Shown piece after piece: positions 6,924 to 44,909 of a stretch of 64,000 nt of DNA; the first letter of the stretch is position 1, and every line of letters begins with the position of its first letter. This DNA comes from Nitrospirota bacterium (GTDB lineage Bacteria > Nitrospirota > Thermodesulfovibrionia > Thermodesulfovibrionales > Dissulfurispiraceae). The notes under the pieces were generated by a model. That model was not told the origin of the DNA, made no database searches, and was given only the letters and a program-made list of their open reading frames with translations. The translations under genes were made by a program, and so were the position numbers. The stretch covers positions 1-64,000 of the forward strand of contig JAFGXL010000008.1 in assembly GCA_016936655.1 (NCBI GenBank), written 5' to 3'.

Positions 6924-7831
6924 AAGATCTTGTAAGCATAAAAGATATCAACAGGGAGCAGATAGAGCTGATTCTGTCTACTGCTGCTTCATTTAAGGTT
7001 GTACTGCAGCGCGACATCAAAAAGGTGCCTGCACTTAGAGGCAAGACGGTTGTTAACCTCTTTTTTGAGCCTTCTACTCGCACAAAGACATCTTTTGAAC
7101 TGGCAGAAAAGAGGCTTAGCACTGATGTGCTAAATTTCTCTGTTCCCACAAGCAGTGTTGTAAAGGGTGAGACGCTTCTGGATACTGTAAGGACAATTGA
7201 GTCTTATGGGGTTGACTATATTGTTATAAGACATTCTTCAAGCGGAGTGCCACATTTTATATCTAAAAATACTCATGCTTCTGTTGTAAACGCAGGTGAC
7301 GGAACTAATGAACATCCTACGCAGGCTCTGCTTGATGCCTTCAGCATACTTGACAAGAAAGAGACTCTTGAAGGACTGAAAATAGCTATAGTTGGTGATG
7401 TTTGCCACAGCAGAGTAGCAAAGTCCAATATATATCTTTTTAGTAATTTTGCATCAGAAGTTCGGCTTGTCGGACCCCCTACGCTTGTTCCTGAGTTCAA
7501 GGGCTACAATGTGCAGTATTTCAATAAGATTGAGGACGGTATACAAGGTGCAGATGTTGTGATGATGCTCAGAATACAGTCCGAACGGATGACAAAGGGA
7601 TTTTTCCCATCTACACTCGAGTATGCCAGCCTCTGGGGACTAAACTCCGCCAGACTTAAATTGGCAAAAAAGGATGCTATAGTGATGCATCCCGGCCCAA
7701 TGAACAGGGGTGTTGAGATAACCTCTGAGGTTGCTGATTCAGATCAATCAATAATTTTAGAGCAGGTTACAAACGGTCTTGCTGTAAGGATGGCCGTAAT
7801 TTATCTGTTGGGCAGGGACAATGAGCAATAA
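6920..7831 (+). CDS. pyrB: Aspartate carbamoyltransferase catalytic subunit
   Basis: Joins carbamoyl phosphate and aspartate, the committed pyrimidine step. The carbamoyl-phosphate loop FFEPSTRTKTSFE is at about residues 50-62, with the HPTQALLDAFSI motif near residue 130 and HPGPMNRGVE near residue 257; 303 residues is normal. No regulatory pyrI gene follows, consistent with control by PyrR. Starts at the ATG overlapping the pyrR stop and overlaps pyrC by 11 bases. Confidence 0.97.
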   Translation: MKDLVSIKDINREQIELILSTAASFKVVLQRDIKKVPALRGKTVVNLFFEPSTRTKTSFELAEKRLSTDVLNFSVPTSSVVKGETLLDTVRTIESYGVDYIVIRHSSSGVPHFISKNTHASVVNAGDGTNEHPTQALLDAFSILDKKETLEGLKIAIVGDVCHSRVAKSNIYLFSNFASEVRLVGPPTLVPEFKGYNVQYFNKIEDGIQGADVVMMLRIQSERMTKGFFPSTLEYASLWGLNSARLKLAKKDAIVMHPGPMNRGVEITSEVADSDQSIILEQVTNGLAVRMAVIYLLGRDNEQ

Positions 7832-9119
7832 AATTGTTATCAGAGACTGCAGGATAGTAGATGTTTCTCAGGATATAGACTCATCTGGAGACATTATTAT
7901 CGAAAACAACAAGGTATTGGACCTTGTTGTTCATAAGCCCGGCTTAAAGCCTGATTATGCTGACTTTGAGGTTGTTGAGGCATCCGGCTTTATGGCGATG
8001 CCCGGTTTTATTGATATTCATACGCACCTGAGGGAGCCAGGCTTTGAGCATAAAGAGACTATAGCTACAGGCACTTTGGCAGCAATAAAGGGCGGATTCA
8101 CATCTGTATGCCCTATGCCGAACACCAATCCTGTAAATGATAACCCTACTGTAACTACATTTATTATTAAAAGAGCGATGAAACGTGGATCATGCAATGT
8201 TTATCCTATAGGCGCTATAACTAAAGGCCAAAATGGTGAAGAGCTGGCAGAGATGGGTATGATGCTCGAGGCTGGCTGCGTGGCATTCTCTGATGACGGC
8301 AAGCCTGTGATGAATGCCCTTGTAATGAAAAGGGCGCTTGAGTATTCGAAGGTGTTCGGAGTGCCCCTCATATCCCACTGCGAGGATATGAGCCTCACTG
8401 CAATGGGTGTGATGAATGAAGGCTATCTGGCCACTTTGCTAGGTCTGGAGGGTATCCCCAGATCCTCTGAAGAGCTCATTGTGAGCCGCGACATTATGCT
8501 GGCTGGATATGCAGGAGCAAGACTCCATATAGCGCATGTATCAACAAGAGGTTCTGTTGATATTATCAGGCGCGCAAAGGCAAGTGGAGTACAGGTTACA
8601 GCAGAGACCTGTCCCCACTACTTTACAATAACCGAAGATGCTGTGAAAGGATATAATACTGATGCCAAGGTGAATCCTCCTCTGCGGTGCGCTGAAGATA
8701 TTGAAGCAATAAAAGAGGGTCTCAGAGACGGCACTATAGATGTGATAGCTACAGATCATGCTCCTCACCATGCTGATGAAAAGGTACTTGAGTTTGACAG
8801 GGCACCTTCAGGTATATCTGGGCTGGAAACAGCTCTTAGCCTAAGCCTCAGACTTGTCGATGAGGGAGTGCTGACCTACTCAGATCTTTGTAAAAAGATA
8901 TCTTATGAACCTTCAAAAATATTCGGCATAGGAAAGGGAACACTTAAAAAAGGTGCATGTGCTGACATCACAATCATAGATACTAAAAAAGAGTTTATCG
9001 TATCAAAAAGCAAACTCCTGTCCAAGGGCAAGAATACGCCATTTGAAGGTATGAATCTTATGGGAATGCCTGTGGCTGTTGTTGTGAAGGGGAAATATAT
9101 AAATGTTCTGGAGCTTTAA
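7821..9119 (+). CDS. pyrC: Dihydroorotase (type I)
   Basis: Zinc amidohydrolase closing carbamoyl-aspartate to dihydroorotate. Metal ligands are visible: DIHTHLREPG near residue 60, HCEDMS near residue 185, HIAHVST near residue 237 and ATDHAPH near residue 310. The intact ligand set and 432-residue length indicate an active enzyme rather than an inactive PyrC' partner of PyrB. Overlaps pyrB at its start and carA through a TAATG junction. Confidence 0.96.
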   Translation: MSNKIVIRDCRIVDVSQDIDSSGDIIIENNKVLDLVVHKPGLKPDYADFEVVEASGFMAMPGFIDIHTHLREPGFEHKETIATGTLAAIKGGFTSVCPMPNTNPVNDNPTVTTFIIKRAMKRGSCNVYPIGAITKGQNGEELAEMGMMLEAGCVAFSDDGKPVMNALVMKRALEYSKVFGVPLISHCEDMSLTAMGVMNEGYLATLLGLEGIPRSSEELIVSRDIMLAGYAGARLHIAHVSTRGSVDIIRRAKASGVQVTAETCPHYFTITEDAVKGYNTDAKVNPPLRCAEDIEAIKEGLRDGTIDVIATDHAPHHADEKVLEFDRAPSGISGLETALSLSLRLVDEGVLTYSDLCKKISYEPSKIFGIGKGTLKKGACADITIIDTKKEFIVSKSKLLSKGKNTPFEGMNLMGMPVAVVVKGKYINVLEL

Positions 9120-35519: not shown

Positions 35520-35862
35520 TAAGTTCGACACACTTATAGGCAATAATTCAGAGTTTAATGGCACTGTTATTGTAGATGGTACTGTGCGAATAGACGGCAG
35601 ATTCACAGGCAATATAAAAGCTGACTGGGTGATTATAGGCAACAGCGCTGATTTTAGCGGAGACGTAAATGCAAGAGGTGTAGTAATCGGTTCTAGAATG
35701 CATGGAAATATCGAGGCTTCTGAGCTTGTTGAGATAAAACCTAAAGGTATGCTTTATGGTGATGTAAAGACAAAAAAGCTGACAGTTGCTGAAGGGGCTG
35801 TATTTGAAGGCAGGTCTTTTATACATAAAGATGCTGCTGAGCCTGATAATTCTGAAGAATAG
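35500..35862 (+). CDS. Bactofilin
   Basis: 120-residue cytoskeletal beta-helix protein. Strong Shine-Dalgarno AAGGAG (35487-35492) sets ATG 35500; reading frame overlaps the M23 gene end. The central region has typical bactofilin repeats GNNSEFNGTVIVDGTVRIDGRF and GNIKADWVIIGNSADFSGDV with a polar amino terminus. Bactofilins polymerise and recruit peptidoglycan enzymes, fitting its position beside the M23 peptidase. Confidence 0.9.
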   Translation: MFSRKNDKFDTLIGNNSEFNGTVIVDGTVRIDGRFTGNIKADWVIIGNSADFSGDVNARGVVIGSRMHGNIEASELVEIKPKGMLYGDVKTKKLTVAEGAVFEGRSFIHKDAAEPDNSEE

Positions 35863-35915
35863 TAATAGTTTAGAATATTATAAACTTTTCTTATAGCTAT
35901 ATTTTTAATGGTTAA

Positions 35916-35944
35916 TTGACTTGGGTCAGGGTATTAAATAAAAT
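35916..35944 (+). promoter_or_regulatory. Sigma-70 promoter of the formate dehydrogenase operon
   Basis: TTGACT (35916-35921), exactly 17 bases, TAAAAT (35939-35944). Transcription would start near 35951, giving a 54-base leader with GGGGAGG before the fdhA ATG. Confidence 0.75.
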
Positions 35945-36004
35945 AATTCTAAAGTAATTTTAGGTAGAAGCTTAGCAGCACAAACTATTTCACGGGGAGG
36001 TAGT

Positions 36005-39000
36005 ATGGGAGTATCACGTCGAGATTTTCTTAAGCTGTCCGGCGTCTCTCTTCTGGCAGGTTCCGCAGGTATCAATCTTGAACCAGCAAAAGCATATGCT
36101 CAGGGTCTCAGGATTAAAAATGCCAAAGAGACGACAACAGTCTGTCCTTATTGTTCTGTTGGGTGCGGCATTATTGTGCACACAGTAGACGGCAAGGTTG
36201 TTAACACTGAAGGGGATGCAGATCATCCTATCAATGAGGGGGCTCTCTGTTCAAAGGGTGGCTCGCTTTACCAGCTGGTAAATAACTCATTAAGACCATC
36301 AAAGCCGCTTTACAGGGCTCCCGGAGCTGACAAGTGGAAAGAGGTTGAGTGGAGCTGGGCATTCGATGAAATTGCAAAGAGAGTAAAAGGAACAAGAGAC
36401 AGAACATTCAAGACAACATCAAAATCAAAGGTTACAGAAAAGCTGCCTGATGGTACAGAAAAGGTGGTTGAGAAAGAGTTTGTTGTAAACAGAACCGATG
36501 GCATAGCCCATATCGGAAGCGCAGCTCTTGATAACGAAGAGTGCTTTCTCATCCAGAAGATGATGAGGTCATGGGGATTGACCTGGATAGAACACCAGGC
36601 CCGAATATGACACTCCGCAACTGTTGCGGCTCTGGCAGAGTCGTTCGGACGCGGTGCGATGACAAATCACTGGATTGATTTCAAGAATGCTAATGTAATT
36701 CTTGTAATGGGTTCAAACCCTGCTGAAAACCATCCTATCTCTATGAAGTGGATCATGAGAGCTAAAGAGAGGGGTGCAAAGCTGCTGGTTGTTGACCCGC
36801 GCTTTACAAAGACAGCAACAAAAGCTGATGTTTATGCTTCACTGCGTTCTGGAACAGACATAGCGTTCCTTGGCGGTATGATCAAATATATACTTGACAA
36901 TAATCTCTACTTTAAAGAGTATGTTGCCAAGTATACCAATGCTACTTATCTGGTGAATCCTGATTTTAAGATGCCAGGAGAACTCAATGGTCTCTTCTCC
37001 GGCTATGACGAGAAATCCAGAAAGTATGACAAAAAGACATGGTCATTCCAGCTTGACGAAAATGGTCTACCAAAGCAGGATCCTACGCTTAAAGATCCAA
37101 ATTGTGTGTTCCAGCTTCTAAAGAAACACTATTCAAGGTACACAATTGATAAGGTTGTTGATATTACAGGCACTGACAAGAATAAGCTTCTTGAAGTCTA
37201 TAAGGCCTATGCATCAACAGGAAGACCCAATATGTCAGGCACAGAGCTTTACGCTATGGGCTGGACACAGCATACAGTAGGCACTCAGAACATAAGGGCT
37301 ATGTGCATAATTCAGCTTTTGCTCGGCAACATCGGTATAGCTGGAGGCGGCATCAACGCTATGAGAGGAGAGTCAAATGTTCAGGGTTCAACTGACTATG
37401 GTCTCCTGTTCCACATACTACCTGCGTATCTGCCTGTACCTAATGCAGCACTTACAGATCTGAGCACATACAAAGAAAAAACAACTCCTAAGAGCAAAGA
37501 TCCAAAGAGTGTCAACTGGTGGTCAAACAGAGGCAAATACATAACCAGCTATCTCAAAGCGATATATGGAAATAAAGCTACGAAGGAAAATGATTTTGGA
37601 TATGCATGGCTTCCAAAGCTTGATGTCGGAATGAACGCTTCATGGCTCAATCTGTTTGACAAGATGCTGGAAGGCAAGTTCGAGGGCTTCTTTGCATGGG
37701 GTCAGAATCCGGCATGCTCAGGAGCAAACTCAAACAAGACCAGAAAGGCTATGAGCAAGCTTAAATGGATGGTAAATGTCAATCTCTTTGACAATGAGAC
37801 AGGCTCATTCTGGAGAGGTCCTGGCTTGAATCCCAAGGACATCCAGACAGAAGTATTCTTCCTTCCATGCGCTTCTTCAGTAGAGAAAGAGGGCAGTATA
37901 TCCAACTCAGGCAGATGGGCGCAGTGGCGGTACAAGGCTGTTGAGCCGATAGGCGGAACACTTCCTGACGGAGAGATGATCAATGAACTCCAGAAGAGGG
38001 TTAAGAGTTTATACCAGAAAGAGGGCGGAAAGTTCCCTGCTCCTATCATAAATCTCGCATGGGATTATGAGATTCCTGGCGGACACGGTCAATTTAGCAA
38101 GATAGATATCCATAAGGTTGCAAAGGAGATAAATGGATACTACCTGCAGGATGTTTATGACAAAAAGACCGGGAAACTTATAGGCAAAAAGGGCGACCTC
38201 TGCACAAACTTTGTCACACTGCAGGATGATGGTTCAACATCAAGCGGAAACTGGCTTTATAGCGGCAGCTATACGCTTAAAGACGGCAAGCCGGTTAACA
38301 TGATGGCAAGAAGAAAGAAGGGCGACCCTACAGGACTCGGCATGTTCCCTGAATGGTCGTGGTGCTGGCCTGTAAACAGAAGAATACTCTACAACAGGGC
38401 ATCTGTAAATCCGGATGGTCAGCCATGGAATCCAAAGAAAACTGTAATCAAGTGGGATCCAAATAAAATTGATCCTGCTACAAAGAAGGGGACTCCAGGA
38501 TGGGTAGGTGATGTGCCGGACGGACCTGCTCCTCCTATGTCTGACGAAAAGAACGGTAAGTATCCGTTCATAATGAAGACAGACGGCAAGGGATCTATCT
38601 ATGGACCTGGTCTTGCAGACGGACCATTCCCTGAACATTATGAGGCTCTTGAATGTCCGCTCCAGGAGAATATCCTCTCTAAACAGAGGATTAATCCGGC
38701 AACCAAGCTTTTCCATGACAAAGGTAAAGGCAAAGATGAGGACGTATTCTACTCATGCGATATGAGATACCCGTATGTAGCATCTACATACAGGGTAACT
38801 GAGCATTGGCAGACAGGACTCATGACTCGTCATCTCTCATGGCTTCTCGAGATGCAGCCGCAGCAGTTTGTCGAGGTCAGCATGGAGCTCGCAAAAGAGA
38901 AGGATATTAAAAATGGCGATAAGATGATCGTAAAATCTGCACGCGGACAGGTAAATGCGATAGCCATTGTAACAAACAGGTTTAAACCCTTCAAGGTGGC

Positions 39001-39172
39001 AGGAAGCACAATTCATCAGGTAGGTCTGCCGTGGCACTTTGGATGGCAGTTCCCTGAGGACGGCAGCGGCTTTGACAGCGCTAACCTGCTGACACCTACC
39101 ATCGGGGATCCGAACACCATGATCCCTGAATCAAAGGCCTTTATGGTCAATATTGAAAAGGCGAGGGGGTAA
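36005..39172 (+). CDS. fdhA: Selenocysteine formate dehydrogenase catalytic subunit (periplasmic, Tat-exported)
   Basis: Molybdopterin (or tungstopterin) formate dehydrogenase, 1055 residues with one in-frame TGA at codon 202 (36608-36610). The TGA sits where FdnG-type enzymes have Sec, in ARI-U-HSATVAALAESFGRGAMTNHW order, and the frame continues for 854 more residues, so readthrough is required. The amino end has a twin-arginine signal (SRRDFLK, Arg5-Arg6) followed by a hydrophobic stretch to about residue 32, then the 4Fe-4S cluster motif CPYCSVGC. FdnG-like length. Candidate SECIS 18 bases after the TGA. fdhB begins 6 bases later. Confidence 0.95.
36628..36642 (+). promoter_or_regulatory. 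Candidate SECIS hairpin for fdhA Sec202
   Basis: GGCTCT pairs with AGAGTC (one G.T wobble) around the loop GGC (36634-36636), 24-26 bases after the TGA. Bacterial SECIS hairpins have their apical loop roughly 16-37 bases from the UGA and a G in the first two loop positions; this one fits. An alternative fold using CTGTTGC/GGCAG is possible. Confidence 0.55.
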
Positions 39173-39178
39173 ACTACA

Positions 39179-39940
39179 ATGAAAAGAAAAGCATTATTGA
39201 TATCGCCTGAACTCTGTATAGGCTGCAGGGCCTGCCAGGTTGCATGCAAATCATGGAACCAGCTTGATGGCACAAGAACCAACAACAGGGGTACATTTGA
39301 GAATCCGCCGGATCTCACTCCTGCGCTTTATAACAAAATACGTTTTGTCGAAGTTCCATCAGAAAAGGATGATATGCGTTGGCTTTTTGTGAGCCAGAGA
39401 TGCATGCACTGCGATGATGCAGGCTGCATGAAAATATGTCCATCTCCGGGAGCACTCTATAGGACAAAAGAGGGTGCAGTTGTATTTGATAAAGACAAAT
39501 GCATAGGCTGCAAACTCTGCGTTGCTGCCTGTCCTTTTGATGTTCCAAGATACGACAAGAACGATAAAATATCTAAGTGTACACTCTGTGCTGACAGGAT
39601 AGCTGAAAACCTCGAGCCTCTCTGTGCAAAGACATGCCCCACCGGAGCTATAAAGTTCGGTGACAGGGATGAGCTTATTGCAGAGGCGCAGAAGGCAGGC
39701 TATCAGAAGGTGTATGGTCAAAATGATCTTGGCGGACTAGGCGCGCTGTATGCATTCAAGGAGCCCCCTAAATTCTACGGCATGGATGATAAGCCGCAGA
39801 TACCAGATTCTGTAATATTCTGGCATAAGGTGCTTAAACCTCTTGCTGTTATAGGATTGGGAGGCGCTGTTGCAGCTTCTCTCCTCCACTACGCTGTAGT
39901 GGGCCCCAAAAAAGACAAGGAGGAGAACAACGATGAGTAA
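39179..39940 (+). CDS. fdhB: Formate dehydrogenase iron-sulfur subunit
   Basis: 253 residues with four ferredoxin-type 4Fe-4S sites: CIGCRACQVACKSWN, CMHCDDAGCMKICP, CIGCKLCVAACP and CTLCADRIAENLEPLCAKTCP. The carboxy end is a single transmembrane helix (about 220-240), so the subunit transfers electrons from FdhA to the membrane cytochrome. Overlaps fdhC by 8 bases. Confidence 0.95.
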   Translation: MKRKALLISPELCIGCRACQVACKSWNQLDGTRTNNRGTFENPPDLTPALYNKIRFVEVPSEKDDMRWLFVSQRCMHCDDAGCMKICPSPGALYRTKEGAVVFDKDKCIGCKLCVAACPFDVPRYDKNDKISKCTLCADRIAENLEPLCAKTCPTGAIKFGDRDELIAEAQKAGYQKVYGQNDLGGLGALYAFKEPPKFYGMDDKPQIPDSVIFWHKVLKPLAVIGLGGAVAASLLHYAVVGPKKDKEENNDE

Positions 39941-40535
39941 AATGATCAGAAAGGCATCGACCTTTGAGATAGTTAACCACTGGATTCTTGCGGTCAGCTG
40001 CATATTTCTTGTGGTGAGCGGGTTTGCGTTCCTCTTCCATCTTGAACAGCTGAACACAGTGTTCGGAAGTTTTATAACACTCAAAAATCTGCATAACTGG
40101 GTAGGTGTTGTATTTGTTGTATCGCTGCTGGCAACAGTTTCTCATTACCTGCCGGTAGCGCTTAATCTCTCATCAGAAGATCTCGTATGGTTGTCTAAAG
40201 GCGGGGGATATATAGTAAAAAATGTGAAGCTGCCTGAACAGGATATTATCAACTCTGGCCAGAAGCTCTACTATCTAGCCATACTCGGAGCAGGAGTGCT
40301 TATATCCATTTCAGGGTTCATAATATGGATAGCACCAGGATCAAGAACCCTCGTGCTTATATCGCATTTGCTTCACAATTTAAGCTTTATTGTATTTGTG
40401 ATGGCTATTCCGATTCATGCTTATCTGGCATCCATCGCAAACCCTGGAACTTTCAGGATAATGGTTCAGGGAACAGTCCCTCTTGAGTGGGCTAGGAAAA
40501 GGCACGGCAAGTGGGTAAAAAGACTAGGATACTAA
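39933..40535 (+). CDS. fdhC: Formate dehydrogenase cytochrome b556 subunit
   Basis: 200-residue membrane di-haem b subunit of the FdnI type; four helices are predicted (about 16-38, 50-72, 105-128 and 138-160). Haem-ligand histidines lie in FEIVNHWILA, HNWVGVVF and the LLHNLSFIVFVMAIPIHAYLA stretch. It passes electrons to quinone. Starts at ATG overlapping fdhB, stop followed 12 bases later by the DsbA-like gene. Confidence 0.93.
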   Translation: MSKMIRKASTFEIVNHWILAVSCIFLVVSGFAFLFHLEQLNTVFGSFITLKNLHNWVGVVFVVSLLATVSHYLPVALNLSSEDLVWLSKGGGYIVKNVKLPEQDIINSGQKLYYLAILGAGVLISISGFIIWIAPGSRTLVLISHLLHNLSFIVFVMAIPIHAYLASIANPGTFRIMVQGTVPLEWARKRHGKWVKRLGY

Positions 40536-40547
40536 GGAGAATATGAT

Positions 40548-41153
40548 ATGAACCTGACGGTGCGCTGTATTTTTGTGATTCTAGTAATGCTTTGTATTGC
40601 GCCTTTTGCTTATTGCGATGAGCAGAGATACAGCGTGCCGGTCGGGGACTCTCCTGTTTACGGACCTGCAAACGCACCTGTAACAATAATTGAGTTTCTC
40701 GACTACCAGTGACCTCACTGCGTAGCTGTCGGTCCGACAGTCAAAAAACTTCTTGCTGAATTTAAGGATAAGGTAAGGCTCGCAGTAAAGCAATATCCTT
40801 ATAAATACCGTGATCATGCTTTTATATCATCTCAGGCAGCGCTGGCAGCCAGGGATCAGGGCAAATTCTGGGAGATGCATACCCTGCTGCTCCAGAGGTC
40901 TCCAAGGCTGGACAGAAACAGTCTTATACAGTATGCAAAAGAGCTGAACCTTGATGTAAAGCGCTTCACAAAGGATATAGATTCAAAGAAACATGCAAAA
41001 GAGATTCAGGCAGATTTAAAGCTCGCTCAGGATATTGACTTATATAACACCCCGACATTTTTTATTAATGGAATAAGGATTGTTGGCAACAGACCATATG
41101 ATTATATCAGAGACATACTGGTTAAGGAGCTTGATCGTGTGCAGAAGAAATAA
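40548..41153 (+). CDS. DsbA-like thiol-disulfide oxidoreductase with selenocysteine in the active site
   Basis: 201 residues if TGA at codon 55 (40710-40712) is read as Sec. Signal peptide up to about residue 23, then VPVGDSPVYGPANAPVTIIEFLDYQ and the active site U-P-H-C (Sec55, Cys58), where homologues have CPHC. Helical insert follows (about 85-170) and the cis-Pro loop LYNTPTFFINGIRI is intact near residue 178. Chance loss is unlikely: the stop falls exactly on the catalytic Cys and the rest is conserved. A hairpin with SECIS geometry follows. It overlaps the peroxidase gene by 17 bases and lies between fdhC and that gene. Start chosen from AAGGAG (40534-40539) before ATG 40548; ATG 40543 is out of frame. 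Confidence 0.85.
40725..40741 (+). promoter_or_regulatory. Candidate SECIS hairpin for the DsbA-like selenoprotein
   Basis: CTGTCG (40726-40731) pairs perfectly with CGACAG (40735-40740), with G40725.T41 wobble below, around a GTC loop (40732-40734). The loop is +20 to +22 from the last base of the TGA, the same spacing as the GUC of the E. coli fdhF SECIS loop. No bulged U is seen, which differs from E. coli. Confidence 0.65.
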
Positions 41154-42201
41154 AATAATAATCGGACTTGTATTTGCTCTCGTTTTTATCCCTGCTACTC
41201 TATTTGCTGCGCATATAGAGTATTTCAAGAGCATTCCTGTGCCAGCAGATAATCCTCAGACTCCCGAAAAGATTGAACTGGGTAAACAGCTCTTTTTTGA
41301 CAGAAGGCTATCTGGAGACGGCACAATGAGCTGCGCCACATGCCATGTGCCTGAACAAGCGTTTGCTGACGGCTTGGATATATCGATGAGTTATCCTACA
41401 ACAAAAAATTGGCGTAACACTCCTACTCTGCTTAATGTGGCATTTTATAAATCCTTCTTTTTTGACGGCAGGGCAGCTACGCTCGAAGAGCAGGCTCTTT
41501 TCCCTGTCATGTCCGCATTTGAGATGAACAAAAACCTTGACTATCTCGAAGAGCATATCAGAAGCGTGCCTTCTTATGTGGCAGACTTTAAAAAAGTGTT
41601 CGGAGGAGATGTTACGCGCGGCCGCATAGCTATGGCTCTCGCCGCATTTCAGAGGACTCTTATATCAATGAATGCACCAATAGATAAATACCTTAAAGGC
41701 GACACCAAGGCTCTATCTGCAGAAGCAAAAAAAGGCTATGAGCTTTTCAAAGGCAAGGCTCGATGCATTAAATGTCATGATGGAGTACTGCTTTCAGACA
41801 GCCGGTTTCATGCACTGAATGTGCCGGAAAACCCGGCTTTTGTTAATGATCCTGATGTAAAAGCCACAAGAAGGTTTGTAGCAAAGGTGTATCACTATGC
41901 TGACTACAAAAAACTTAATGAAGATCCAGGAAGATTTCTTGTTACAAACAATAAAAAGGATTGGCGTGCTTTTAGGACACCAACATTAAGAAATATTGCC
42001 CAGACAGCTCCATATATGCATAACGGAATATTCAAGACACTTGATGAAGTGATAGATTTTTTAAATAATGGAGGAGGTAAAGGCAATAAGGTTTTAACAC
42101 CACTGGGTCTTACATCTGAGGAGAAAAAATATATAAAAACATTCCTCATTGAAGGTCTTACTGGAGATAAGGTAAAGATAAAACATCCTGATATACCTTA
42201 A
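41137..42201 (+). CDS. Di-haem cytochrome c peroxidase/MauG-like protein
   Basis: Periplasmic, about 354 residues. Two c-type haem motifs are visible, CATCH near residue 67 and CIKCH near residue 208, and the sixth-ligand region TAPYMHNG. The signal peptide is IIIGLVFALVFIPATLFA. GTG 41137 is used because AAGGAG lies 7 bases upstream (41124-41129) and it starts the signal peptide; upstream in-frame starts lie in the DsbA-like gene. Family members reduce hydrogen peroxide or carry out oxidations. The fdh neighbourhood suggests formate-derived electrons could feed it, an inference only. Confidence 0.88.
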   Translation: MCRRNKIIIGLVFALVFIPATLFAAHIEYFKSIPVPADNPQTPEKIELGKQLFFDRRLSGDGTMSCATCHVPEQAFADGLDISMSYPTTKNWRNTPTLLNVAFYKSFFFDGRAATLEEQALFPVMSAFEMNKNLDYLEEHIRSVPSYVADFKKVFGGDVTRGRIAMALAAFQRTLISMNAPIDKYLKGDTKALSAEAKKGYELFKGKARCIKCHDGVLLSDSRFHALNVPENPAFVNDPDVKATRRFVAKVYHYADYKKLNEDPGRFLVTNNKKDWRAFRTPTLRNIAQTAPYMHNGIFKTLDEVIDFLNNGGGKGNKVLTPLGLTSEEKKYIKTFLIEGLTGDKVKIKHPDIP

Positions 42202-42230: not shown

Positions 42231-42977
42231 ATGGATACAAAAGAGCTGGCAGCAAAAAAACCACACCTGCAGGATGCAGTAAGATTTTATGAGAAAGTGT
42301 TAAACTTTCTAGAACTTGCTGAAAAATATAAGTATGCTCCGTCAAAAGAGGAGACTACTTATAAAAGCGATGTAGCCGAGGTTCTTTTGAATGACTTGGC
42401 ATCATCACTCAAAATCCCTCAGGAGAATATACAGCCCCTAAAAGAAGCCCTCCTTTTTGGGAGAATAGATTTCAGGAGGCTACCGCTTAATGAAATACCT
42501 TCATTTCAGTCTCCATATCACGAAGATGAATTAGCTTCAATTCTATATATACTCGGCATGCCATTTCTTCACTGGTATGCTGAAGCTTCCGGCATAAACA
42601 CTGCAGGCTGGGAGAATGGGAAATGTCCTGTATGCGGCGCAACCCCTTCTTTTGCTGTTATGAAGAAAGAGGATAAAAAGACACTTTTTTGCTCTTTTTG
42701 CGGCACCAAGGGCACATGGCGCAGAATTGGCTGCCCATCTTGCATGGAAATAAACGGATCAAAAATTGAAATTCTTGAAGCAGAGAATGAGGAGAGCATA
42801 AGGCTTGAGCTCTGCAGCACATGCAAATGCTATATAAAAGCTGCTGATGAAAAGCTGCTGACAGACAGCACCTCATATCTGCTGGATTTAATTTCCTTGC
42901 CGCTTGATATAGTAGCGCAGCAGAAAGGTTTTAAGAGATTGTCTCCAAATCCTCTCGGACTCAAAAATCTTGTTTAA
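42231..42977 (+). CDS. fdhE: Formate dehydrogenase accessory protein FdhE
   Basis: Cytoplasmic maturation factor for respiratory formate dehydrogenases. 248 residues with the family's zinc/iron-binding Cys pairs in the second half: CPVCGATPS, CSFCGTKG, CPSC and CSTCKCYIK. The amino-terminal part is helical (about 1-110). Ten bases upstream of the MoeA-fusion gene and 29 bases after the peroxidase, so still within the fdh operon. Confidence 0.9.
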   Translation: MDTKELAAKKPHLQDAVRFYEKVLNFLELAEKYKYAPSKEETTYKSDVAEVLLNDLASSLKIPQENIQPLKEALLFGRIDFRRLPLNEIPSFQSPYHEDELASILYILGMPFLHWYAEASGINTAGWENGKCPVCGATPSFAVMKKEDKKTLFCSFCGTKGTWRRIGCPSCMEINGSKIEILEAENEESIRLELCSTCKCYIKAADEKLLTDSTSYLLDLISLPLDIVAQQKGFKRLSPNPLGLKNLV

Positions 42978-42986
42978 GGACAGATA

Positions 42987-44909
42987 ATGAAGCAGATTTT
43001 TTTAGATGTTATGTCCATGGACAGAGCCAAAGAGCTGATACTCAGCAGGGTTTTAGAACTTTTAGATGGCATAGAGATGTCTGAGACTATAGATGTTGTC
43101 AAGTCTCGTGGGAGAATAACTGCTGAACCTGTATTTGCAAAATATTCTTCTCCTTTTTATCACGCATCAGCAATGGACGGATACGCTGTAAAGTTTTCTG
43201 ATACATTCAGCGCTTCTGAGTCTGAGCCCGCTCTTCTGACAATCGGCAAAGATACATTTTATATTGATACAGGAGATCCCCTGCCTGAAGGGTTTAACGC
43301 TGTAGTTATGATAGAAGATGTGAATATTGTTGGAGAGTGCATCGAAATTTACCAGCCACTAACTCCATACCAGAATACGCGAACTATAGGTGAAGACATA
43401 GTTTCTACGGAAATGATAGCTCCACTTAATCATAAAATCAGGCCTGTGGATGTAGGGGCCATGCTCGCCAGCGGTTGTGTTCAGGTGAAGGTGCGAAGAA
43501 GACCTCTCGTTACTGTCATACCTACAGGTACAGAACTGATCACGCCTAAAGAGGCGCAAAAAGGCATAAAGGCGCCCGAGATAATAGAGTACAACTCGTT
43601 GGTTCTATCAGGTCTTGTTGAGGAATCAGGAGGAAGCGCTGTCTGCAATCCTATAGTTAAAGATGATTTTGATTCTATTAAGAACGCTATAAGAGATGCT
43701 TCGCTGTCTTCGGATATTGTTATTATAAATGCAGGATCAGGAAGGGGGTCTGAGGACTACACAGCTTCAGCCATAAAAGAACTGGGTGAGCTACTTGTTA
43801 ACGGAGTTTCTATAAAGCCAGGAAAACCATTTATTGCAGGTATTGTGAACAATAAGCCTGTACTGGGCATTCCTGGGTATCCTGTTTCTGCTTACCTCAC
43901 TTTTCAGCTTTTTGCTTTACCGGTTATTAATAAGTATCTTGGGATGTCGCATATAGAGACGGATTGCATTAAAGCAATAGTCTCCAGAAATATGGCATCT
44001 CCAATGGGAGTAGATGAGTATATAAGAGTAAAGCTTGGCGTTGTGAAGGACAAGTATATAGCAACTCCGATCAGCAGAGGAGCAGGCCTTCTCATGTCTG
44101 TAGTAAGAGCAGATGGCATGCTCAGAATACCTGCCAACTCAGAGGGAGTAAAGGCTGGCAGCGAGGTGAGTGTTAATCTGATCAATAGTATAAATCAGAT
44201 TAAACATACTATTGTCTGTATAGGCAGCCATGACAATACTCTAGATATTTTGGCAAATGCTCTAAAGATCAAGCACCCTGAGTTAACCTTTTCGTCTGCA
44301 CATGTTGGATCTATGGGCGGTCTTATGGCTCTTAAAAGATCTGAAGCGCATCTTTGCGGCACACACCTGCTTGACGAAGATACCGGCGAATATAATGTAC
44401 TCTATATCAACAAATTCTTTAATCCAGGTGATATTACGCTAATAACTCTTGTTCATAGGGAGCAGGGACTGTTGGTCAAAAAAGGAAATCCAAAAGCTAT
44501 AAAGGGCATCGAGGATCTTGTTAGAAATGACCTGCTCTTTGTAAACAGACAGCAGGGGTCTGGCACAAGGCTGCTGCTTGATAAAAACCTGAGAGAGCGC
44601 AATATCAATCCTTATTTGATAAAAGGATACGACCGCGAAGAGTATACCCATATGTCTGTTGCCTCGGCAGTGCTAACCGGGCTGTGTGATACAGGTATGG
44701 CTGTGTATTCATCAGCTGTTGCGCTTGGTCTAGATTTTATACCTATCGCAACCGAGAGATATGATCTAGCAATACCTACCGAGATATTGGAATCTGACAT
44801 TATAAAGGCTCTGCTTGATATCATCCGCAATGATGATGAGTTTAAACATTCTGTACTCAAACTCGGAGGCTATGATGTCAGCATGATGGGGCATGTTGTA
44901 AATATCTAA
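42987..44909 (+). CDS. MoeA-type molybdopterin molybdenumtransferase fused to a periplasmic-binding-like domain
   Basis: 640 residues. Residues 1-410 are MoeA-like: ASAMDGYAVKF, IDTGDPLPEGFNAVVMIEDV, VTVIPTGTEL, GSGRGSEDYTASAIKELGE and GIPGYPVSAYLTF. From about residue 410 there is a LysR-effector/PBP-like domain (CIGSHDNTLDILANALK, NRQQGSGTRLLLDKNL, YTHMSVASAVLTGLCDTGMAVYS). Members are annotated as molybdopterin biosynthesis protein with an extra regulatory domain; the ligand is unknown, molybdate or tungstate plausible. Seventh gene of the fdh operon; ends convergently with the LysM-NlpC gene two bases away. Confidence 0.88.
   Translation: MKQIFLDVMSMDRAKELILSRVLELLDGIEMSETIDVVKSRGRITAEPVFAKYSSPFYHASAMDGYAVKFSDTFSASESEPALLTIGKDTFYIDTGDPLPEGFNAVVMIEDVNIVGECIEIYQPLTPYQNTRTIGEDIVSTEMIAPLNHKIRPVDVGAMLASGCVQVKVRRRPLVTVIPTGTELITPKEAQKGIKAPEIIEYNSLVLSGLVEESGGSAVCNPIVKDDFDSIKNAIRDASLSSDIVIINAGSGRGSEDYTASAIKELGELLVNGVSIKPGKPFIAGIVNNKPVLGIPGYPVSAYLTFQLFALPVINKYLGMSHIETDCIKAIVSRNMASPMGVDEYIRVKLGVVKDKYIATPISRGAGLLMSVVRADGMLRIPANSEGVKAGSEVSVNLINSINQIKHTIVCIGSHDNTLDILANALKIKHPELTFSSAHVGSMGGLMALKRSEAHLCGTHLLDEDTGEYNVLYINKFFNPGDITLITLVHREQGLLVKKGNPKAIKGIEDLVRNDLLFVNRQQGSGTRLLLDKNLRERNINPYLIKGYDREEYTHMSVASAVLTGLCDTGMAVYSSAVALGLDFIPIATERYDLAIPTEILESDIIKALLDIIRNDDEFKHSVLKLGGYDVSMMGHVVNI

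Follow-up and report, generated by a model that had tools for sequence, protein, structure and literature searches.

A gene for a predicted selenocysteine-containing protein of the DsbA fold (seleno-DsbA) and the gene for a di-haem protein form a two-gene cassette which, in the genomes examined, is gained and lost as a unit and is found only in genomes with a formate dehydrogenase (FDH) of the FdnG/FdhA type, and the loss of one cysteine of that enzyme, C918, is coupled to the absence of the cassette, as shown by a column scan and a parsimony branch test. The operon was found in a stretch of 64,000 nt (the window) of contig JAFGXL010000008.1 (GCA_016936655.1), from a Nitrospirota bacterium, to which all window coordinates refer (Table 1).

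Table 1. Features of the window discussed in the text, with the basis of each assignment.
Feature	Position	Strand	Basis or remarks
FdhA/FdnG, alpha subunit	36005..39172	+	TAT signal, Sec202, C884/C918; TIGR01553 1417 bits; aligns to D. vulgaris FdhA 6sdr
TGA assigned as Sec202 of FdhA	36608..36610	+	
Cys884 codon of FdhA, equivalent of D. vulgaris FdhA C845	38654..38656	+	alignment, conservation
Cys918 codon of FdhA, equivalent of D. vulgaris FdhA C872	38756..38758	+	alignment, column scan
FDH beta, iron-sulfur subunit	39179..39940	+	TIGR01582 238 bits, below cut-off 334.7
FDH gamma, cytochrome b subunit	39933..40535	+	TIGR01583 114.7 bits, cut-off 115.85
Seleno-DsbA (UPHC) gene	40548..41153	+	predicted periplasmic, DSBA/Thioredoxin_4 fold
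TGA, very likely selenocysteine 55	40710..40712	+	TGA in all orthologues covering the site; Sec machinery in the genome
SECIS hairpin (stem of 6 bp, loop GUC)	40726..40740	+	covariation in 41 homologues; GGUC position as in fdhF
Di-haem CCP/MauG-like protein, second cassette gene	41137..42201	+	PF03150; adjacency; co-occurrence
FdhE accessory protein	42231..42977	+	PF24860; TIGR01562 below cut-off
MoeA fused to PBP-like domain (molybdenum cofactor)	42987..44909	+	

The open reading frame of the seleno-DsbA contains a single in-frame TGA, the readthrough of which yields 201 aa with the active site ...EFLDYQ-U-P-H-C..., a signal peptide and a Thr-cisPro loop. The best Pfam match is Thioredoxin_4 (7.9e-26), followed by DSBA (4.6e-18), and the AlphaFold2 model, built on 39 aligned sequences, has a mean pLDDT of 89.7, rising above 90 in the mature domain, the signal peptide being the only segment below 50. 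By its profile match, its thioredoxin fold with a helical insertion and its cis-Pro loop, the protein satisfies the test for the DsbA fold family (PF01323/PF13462), and it fails the CxxC criterion, as all members have UxxC. The closest solved folds are the Silicibacter oxidoreductase 3gyk, Wolbachia alpha-DsbA2, BdbD and ScsC (TM about 0.7–0.8). The window protein is very likely periplasmic, of the DsbA fold, and has a Sec-Cys pair as its active site, its selenium content and disulfide activity being inferred from sequence.

The reading of the TGA as selenocysteine, obligate throughout the orthologue group, is likewise very likely, although it is inferred from comparative sequence data and selenium in the protein has not been measured. 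In a sample of 296 Nitrospirota genomes, 54 have an orthologue, of 43% identity or more and in two cases interrupted by a contig break, and every orthologue that covers the site carries TGA; the same is true of all those found in the Desulfobulbia, to which Desulfoprunum belongs (in 40 of the 258 genomes), which gives 94 genomes in the two groups, plus Geoalkalibacter. Among the named genomes, all 35 loci of ≥49% identity (Nitrospirota, Desulfobulbaceae, Geoalkalibacter) have TGA, whereas the 45 loci at or below about 45% identity all have TGC or TGT, and these Cys relatives present mostly CPFC sites, without FDH or CCP genes in the vicinity. Above about 45% identity, the homologues in the Nitrospirota, the Desulfobulbia and the named genomes included no Cys orthologue, and since the search query had Cys at the Sec position, such orthologues would have been detected.

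The alternative explanation, a sequencing error or a decaying gene, finds its only support in the TGA itself. Against it are, firstly, the conservation of the TGA in those 94 genomes and Geoalkalibacter and the strong purifying selection on the 145 codons 3′ of it (pN 0.16 vs pS 0.70, against the nearest relative), which together argue that it is not a decayed stop, and furthermore a conserved SECIS and the full Sec machinery of the window genome, in which selA, selB, selC (tRNA-Sec, with UCA anticodon) and selD were all found; this alternative is all but excluded. As separate observations, the selD of this genome (G000:C18:12193-13125, L087) has itself one in-frame TGA, so that SelD looks like a selenoprotein, and a second, more distant DsbA-like group (about 32–37% identity), also with one TGA, exists in other Nitrospirota (for example G058:C30:32556-33053 and 35736-36236, G272:C1:1867625-1868128, G012 and G002) and is perhaps a separate seleno-DsbA subfamily.

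The stem of the SECIS hairpin comprises nt 17–22/26–31, counted from the U of the UGA, and places GGUC at 22–25, exactly where GGTC lies in E. coli fdhF (MG1655 sequence). Over 41 homologues G19, G23, U24 and C25 are invariant, 88.8% of the stem cells are paired and four of the six pairs show double changes, the covariation score is reached by none of 500 shuffles, and a shift of the partner by 1–3 columns lowers every pairing measure. The case for the SECIS rests on this comparative covariation, because in single-sequence folding the window hairpin alone is no more stable than its shuffles (z −0.97); an Rfam search returned no SECIS at 40710. An earlier note on the window, made before any comparison, had claimed that the TGA replaces the first Cys of a CPHC-type site with the frame, signal peptide and cis-Pro loop intact, and that a 6-bp hairpin with a GTC loop follows it at the spacing of E. 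coli fdhF. Both claims held, the first by the reading frame, the model and the homologues, the second by the shared GGUC position and the covarying stem. The same note had left to be checked whether Cys or Sec aligns at position 55 (a Sec codon in all orthologues covering the site) and whether selA, selB, selC and selD accompany it (they do), and had named a degraded stop in a decaying gene as what would refute it, which, given the conserved TGA and the purifying selection, is not borne out.

The operon of the window runs fdnG(Sec)-fdnH-fdnI-secDsbA-ccp-fdhE-moeA, and a possible GTG start of the di-haem gene, at 41137, overlaps the end of the seleno-DsbA gene. In 40 related loci the di-haem gene (CCP) directly follows the seleno-DsbA gene in all but two (L079 and L084), and in the named genomes it does so again, except at contig ends. 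In most loci an FDH lies upstream of the pair; some have fdnGHI, and in the others fdnG is accompanied by a different beta subunit and by a polytopic protein of 379 aa, which we take to be NrfD-like. In five loci (L057, L067, L069, L081, L082) the FDH is not beside the pair, whose two genes nevertheless stay together, mostly among unrelated genes, with L081 still having fdhE and moeA downstream. The earlier claim that the gene belongs to an FDH operon therefore holds with a correction, as the FDH, considered as the tightest neighbour of the seleno-DsbA, was rejected in favour of the CCP gene. The FdhE of the window is, for its part, short and diverged, scoring 54 of the 188 bits of TIGR01562 despite its place in an FDH operon.

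At the level of genomes, a match to FdhA (E<=1e-200) is present in all 54 Nitrospirota genomes with seleno-DsbA, vs 91 of the 296 overall, and 51 of those 54 have the CCP orthologue, which occurs in 52 genomes of the sample. The three without it are G217, where the seleno-DsbA is in tandem, G199, where the protein is a divergent UPYC form, and G213, where the contig ends; the one remaining CCP genome, G041, has seleno-DsbA only as a fragment at a contig end. In G217 no CCP gene was found genome-wide at E<=1e-80. In its locus L079 (about 7483–8805) fdnGHI is followed by a tandem pair of seleno-DsbA genes, the second of which has U-T-H-C and not U-P-H-C. A general oxidative-folding DsbA that sits in the FDH operon by chance would agree with the DSBA/Thioredoxin_4 fold and with 3gyk, BdbD and ScsC as nearest solved folds, but not with the confinement to FdhA-bearing genomes, the pairing with CCP, the obligate Sec or the absence of VKOR, which was not found in the window genome (DsbB lay outside the search), and this reading is all but excluded.

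The di-haem protein meets the PF03150 test, that is, a profile match and two CxxCH motifs. Among the NCBIfam models it reaches 242 of the 444 bits required for MauG and 229 of the 363 for MbnH, so that neither cut-off is met. The Met297 of MacA is an axial ligand of the electron-transfer haem, and in nearly all of 72 di-haem orthologues the residue aligned with it is Phe or Leu (once Tyr). By alignment, then, the protein fails the axial-Met criterion of a classical CCP of the MacA type, and it is possible, on this basis only, that its electron-transfer haem lacks the usual ligand.

The FdhA of the window is closest to those of D. vulgaris and D. gigas; its C884 and C918 align with C845 and C872 of the D. 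vulgaris enzyme, and the equivalent of Met405 is also present. C845–C872 has been named as the allosteric disulfide of D. vulgaris FdhA (PMC11323313), the reduction of which activates FdhAB, while its oxidation protects the enzyme from O2 (PMC11134731, PMC13397495). By alignment, the window enzyme likely belongs to the class with an allosteric redox switch, its activation on reduction being inferred by analogy. Both switch cysteines are present, where covered, in every FdhA with an adjacent seleno-DsbA. In a tree of 145 FdhA sequences, in which named and sampled genomes partly overlap (136 distinct sequences), 80 have the cassette and Cys/Cys and only one has the cassette without Cys/Cys, this being G199, the genome with the divergent UPYC protein and no CCP; without the cassette, 11 have Cys/Cys (an eight-member clade plus G130, G104 and G332) and 50 do not; the three whose cassette state is unknown are all Cys/Cys. 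In many cassette-less FDH operons fdnI is directly followed by fdhE, and in G254 (L113), where FdhA is Ser/Ser, a fused remnant of the seleno-DsbA and ccp genes still lies between the two. A separate case is G205 (L125, L126), with two FdhA copies, one with Sec and the other with Cys as metal ligand, and with the switch cysteines in both.

The column scan covered the 99-sequence clade around the window, in which 80 cassette-bearing and 15 cassette-less FdhA were compared. Of the 258 columns invariant in the former, 239 are also unchanged in the latter, and the one most changed in the absence of the cassette is C918 (12/15), followed by R921 and C884 (5/15 each); C884 is never lost alone within the clade. 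In this unbiased scan C918 ranks first of the 1006 FdhA columns, by frequency difference as well as by entropy difference. Under parsimony, all six losses of C918 fall on cassette-less branches, which make up 17.7% of the tree length (binomial P=3e-5), in a test that treats length as opportunity and ignores the uncertainty of the tree. Independent pairs on well-supported branches run 4–5 one way and 0 the other (p 0.06), limited by their number.

If the cassette acts on this switch, the events could have been the following: (i) air or peroxide would close the surface disulfide C884–C918, and FdhA would be parked in a protected, inactive form; (ii) a membrane reductase of the CcdA type would recharge the seleno-DsbA; (iii) the selenolate would attack the disulfide, Cys58 would resolve the intermediate and the FDH would be reactivated; (iv) and finally, the di-haem protein would clear the H2O2 formed when the FDH meets O2, a related enzyme, FdhM, being one that reduces O2 to H2O2 (PMC13397495). 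That the cassette thus serves the oxygen-protection switch, with the seleno-DsbA as the most likely reductant and the peroxidase removing H2O2, we would as readily expect to fail as to hold, given that the direct contact, the direction of the electrons, the role of the peroxidase and the CcdA donor are all inferred. Loss of the reductase would trap FdhA in the off state and would therefore select for the loss of C918, and the residue replaced in the cassette-less lineages is precisely this switch cysteine. The window genome has three DsbD_TM/CcdA genes, two of them adjoining thioredoxin-like lipoproteins; one CcdA-type gene, in G000 C4 (locus L272), adjoins what we take to be molybdenum cofactor genes of the MoaB/MOSC type. 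Against the proposal, 11 cassette-less FdhA keep both cysteines, and D. vulgaris, which has the switch, is not known to have the cassette, which implies that the switch can also be operated in other ways; similarly, CCP cannot be strictly needed, because G217, with its tandem seleno-DsbA, keeps Cys/Cys in the absence of CCP. The earlier note had supposed a periplasmic redox task tied to the FDH or to the downstream di-haem peroxidase, without specifying it; comparative data support this and now point to a task at the allosteric disulfide of FdhA, shared with the di-haem peroxidase, the direct chemistry being unproven.

A shared ecological cause could possibly yield the same pattern of cassette and C918. 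In this alternative, the cassette and the switch would be separate oxygen-protection devices, both lost in permanently anoxic lineages without any direct contact between them, as might be supposed from the protective function of the switch (PMC13397495), the handling of peroxide by CCP-type proteins, the coupled losses of cassette and C918, and the loss of CCP together with the seleno-DsbA. However, the constraint is released at C918, and then at C884 and R921, not across FdhA, and the cassette is confined to genomes with an FdhA of the FdnG/FdhA type, and this explanation is clearly less likely than not. More distant is the proposal that the two proteins are a general periplasmic peroxide-reducing pair for which the FDH is merely a source of H2O2; the constancy of the gene pair and the ready reaction of Sec selenolates with H2O2 (PMC10779653) speak for it, but the focused link to C918 would not be expected from it, and it is very unlikely.

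The direction of the reaction could also be the reverse, with the di-haem protein and H2O2 oxidizing the seleno-DsbA, which would then close the FdhA disulfide in a protective shutdown. The strict pairing of the two genes, the scores nearest to MauG and MbnH (protein-oxidizing enzymes, their cut-offs missed) and the lack of a VKOR to re-oxidize a DsbA would favour such an oxidant relay; against it are those same missed cut-offs and the Phe or Leu, in place of Met or Tyr, at the ligand position of the electron-transfer haem, the little pressure towards C918 loss that the loss of an oxidase would exert, and G217, which keeps the switch without CCP. We regard it as unlikely. A bolder reading, that a dedicated periplasmic relay of di-haem peroxidase and seleno-DsbA sets the allosteric disulfide according to the level of peroxide, is unlikely but possible and, if true, would mean that selenium chemistry switches a CO2/formate enzyme on and off.

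Returning to the cassette as the putative operator of the switch, its interest lies in that the Sec-containing W/Mo formate dehydrogenases are leading catalysts of CO2 reduction whose use is limited by oxygen, and that the recently described disulfide switch protects one of them. The cassette would be a concrete candidate for its operator, found from gene content and backed by an unbiased residue scan that picked out the switch cysteine, and would offer a possible role to seleno DsbA-like proteins of a class without known function; Desulfoprunum benzoelyticum DSM 28570 and Desulfobulbus sp. Tol-SR are isolates suited to testing it.

Among known systems, seleno DsbA-like proteins have been listed as predicted families with no function (PMC1088965, PMC1794560, PMC9312934, PMC13188914). 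The nearest of these is form 1 (PF01323, UxxC; Sargasso Sea, COG2761; PMC1088965, PMC9312934, PMC13188914), with the same fold and Sec at the first active-site position; the window protein meets its PF01323 and UxxC criteria, without orthology to the listed sequences being established, but its group best matches Thioredoxin_4, is exported and obligately Sec, and is tied to FdhA and the di-haem gene, while no operon, partner or function for form 1 was found in the relevant sections of those three papers. The best NCBIfam match is the Rcas_1661 family (seleno)lipoprotein, or DsbG-like selenoprotein, NF041057, also UxxC and of the Thioredoxin_4 type, membership of which was rejected (82.3 vs a cut-off of 190 bits). 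The closest folds, ScsC, BdbD, alpha-DsbA2 and 3gyk, have Cys instead of Sec and 20–28% identity, and to our knowledge no link to FDH. With the C845–C872 switch of D. vulgaris FdhAB (PMC11323313, PMC11134731, PMC13397495) the window FdhA shares both cysteines and the Met405 equivalent, and in the relevant sections of those papers no reductant or partner acting in vivo is named. The di-haem protein shares PF03150 and two CxxCH motifs with the MacA-type CCP and with MauG/MbnH, from which it differs, respectively, in the residue at MacA Met297 and in its scores. No seleno-DsbA linked to FDH operons or to CCP was found in the literature searched, mostly without subscription journals. Thus, with seleno DsbA-like families already predicted, what is new with respect to that literature is the obligate-Sec subgroup, its di-haem partner and the coupling to the FdhA switch.
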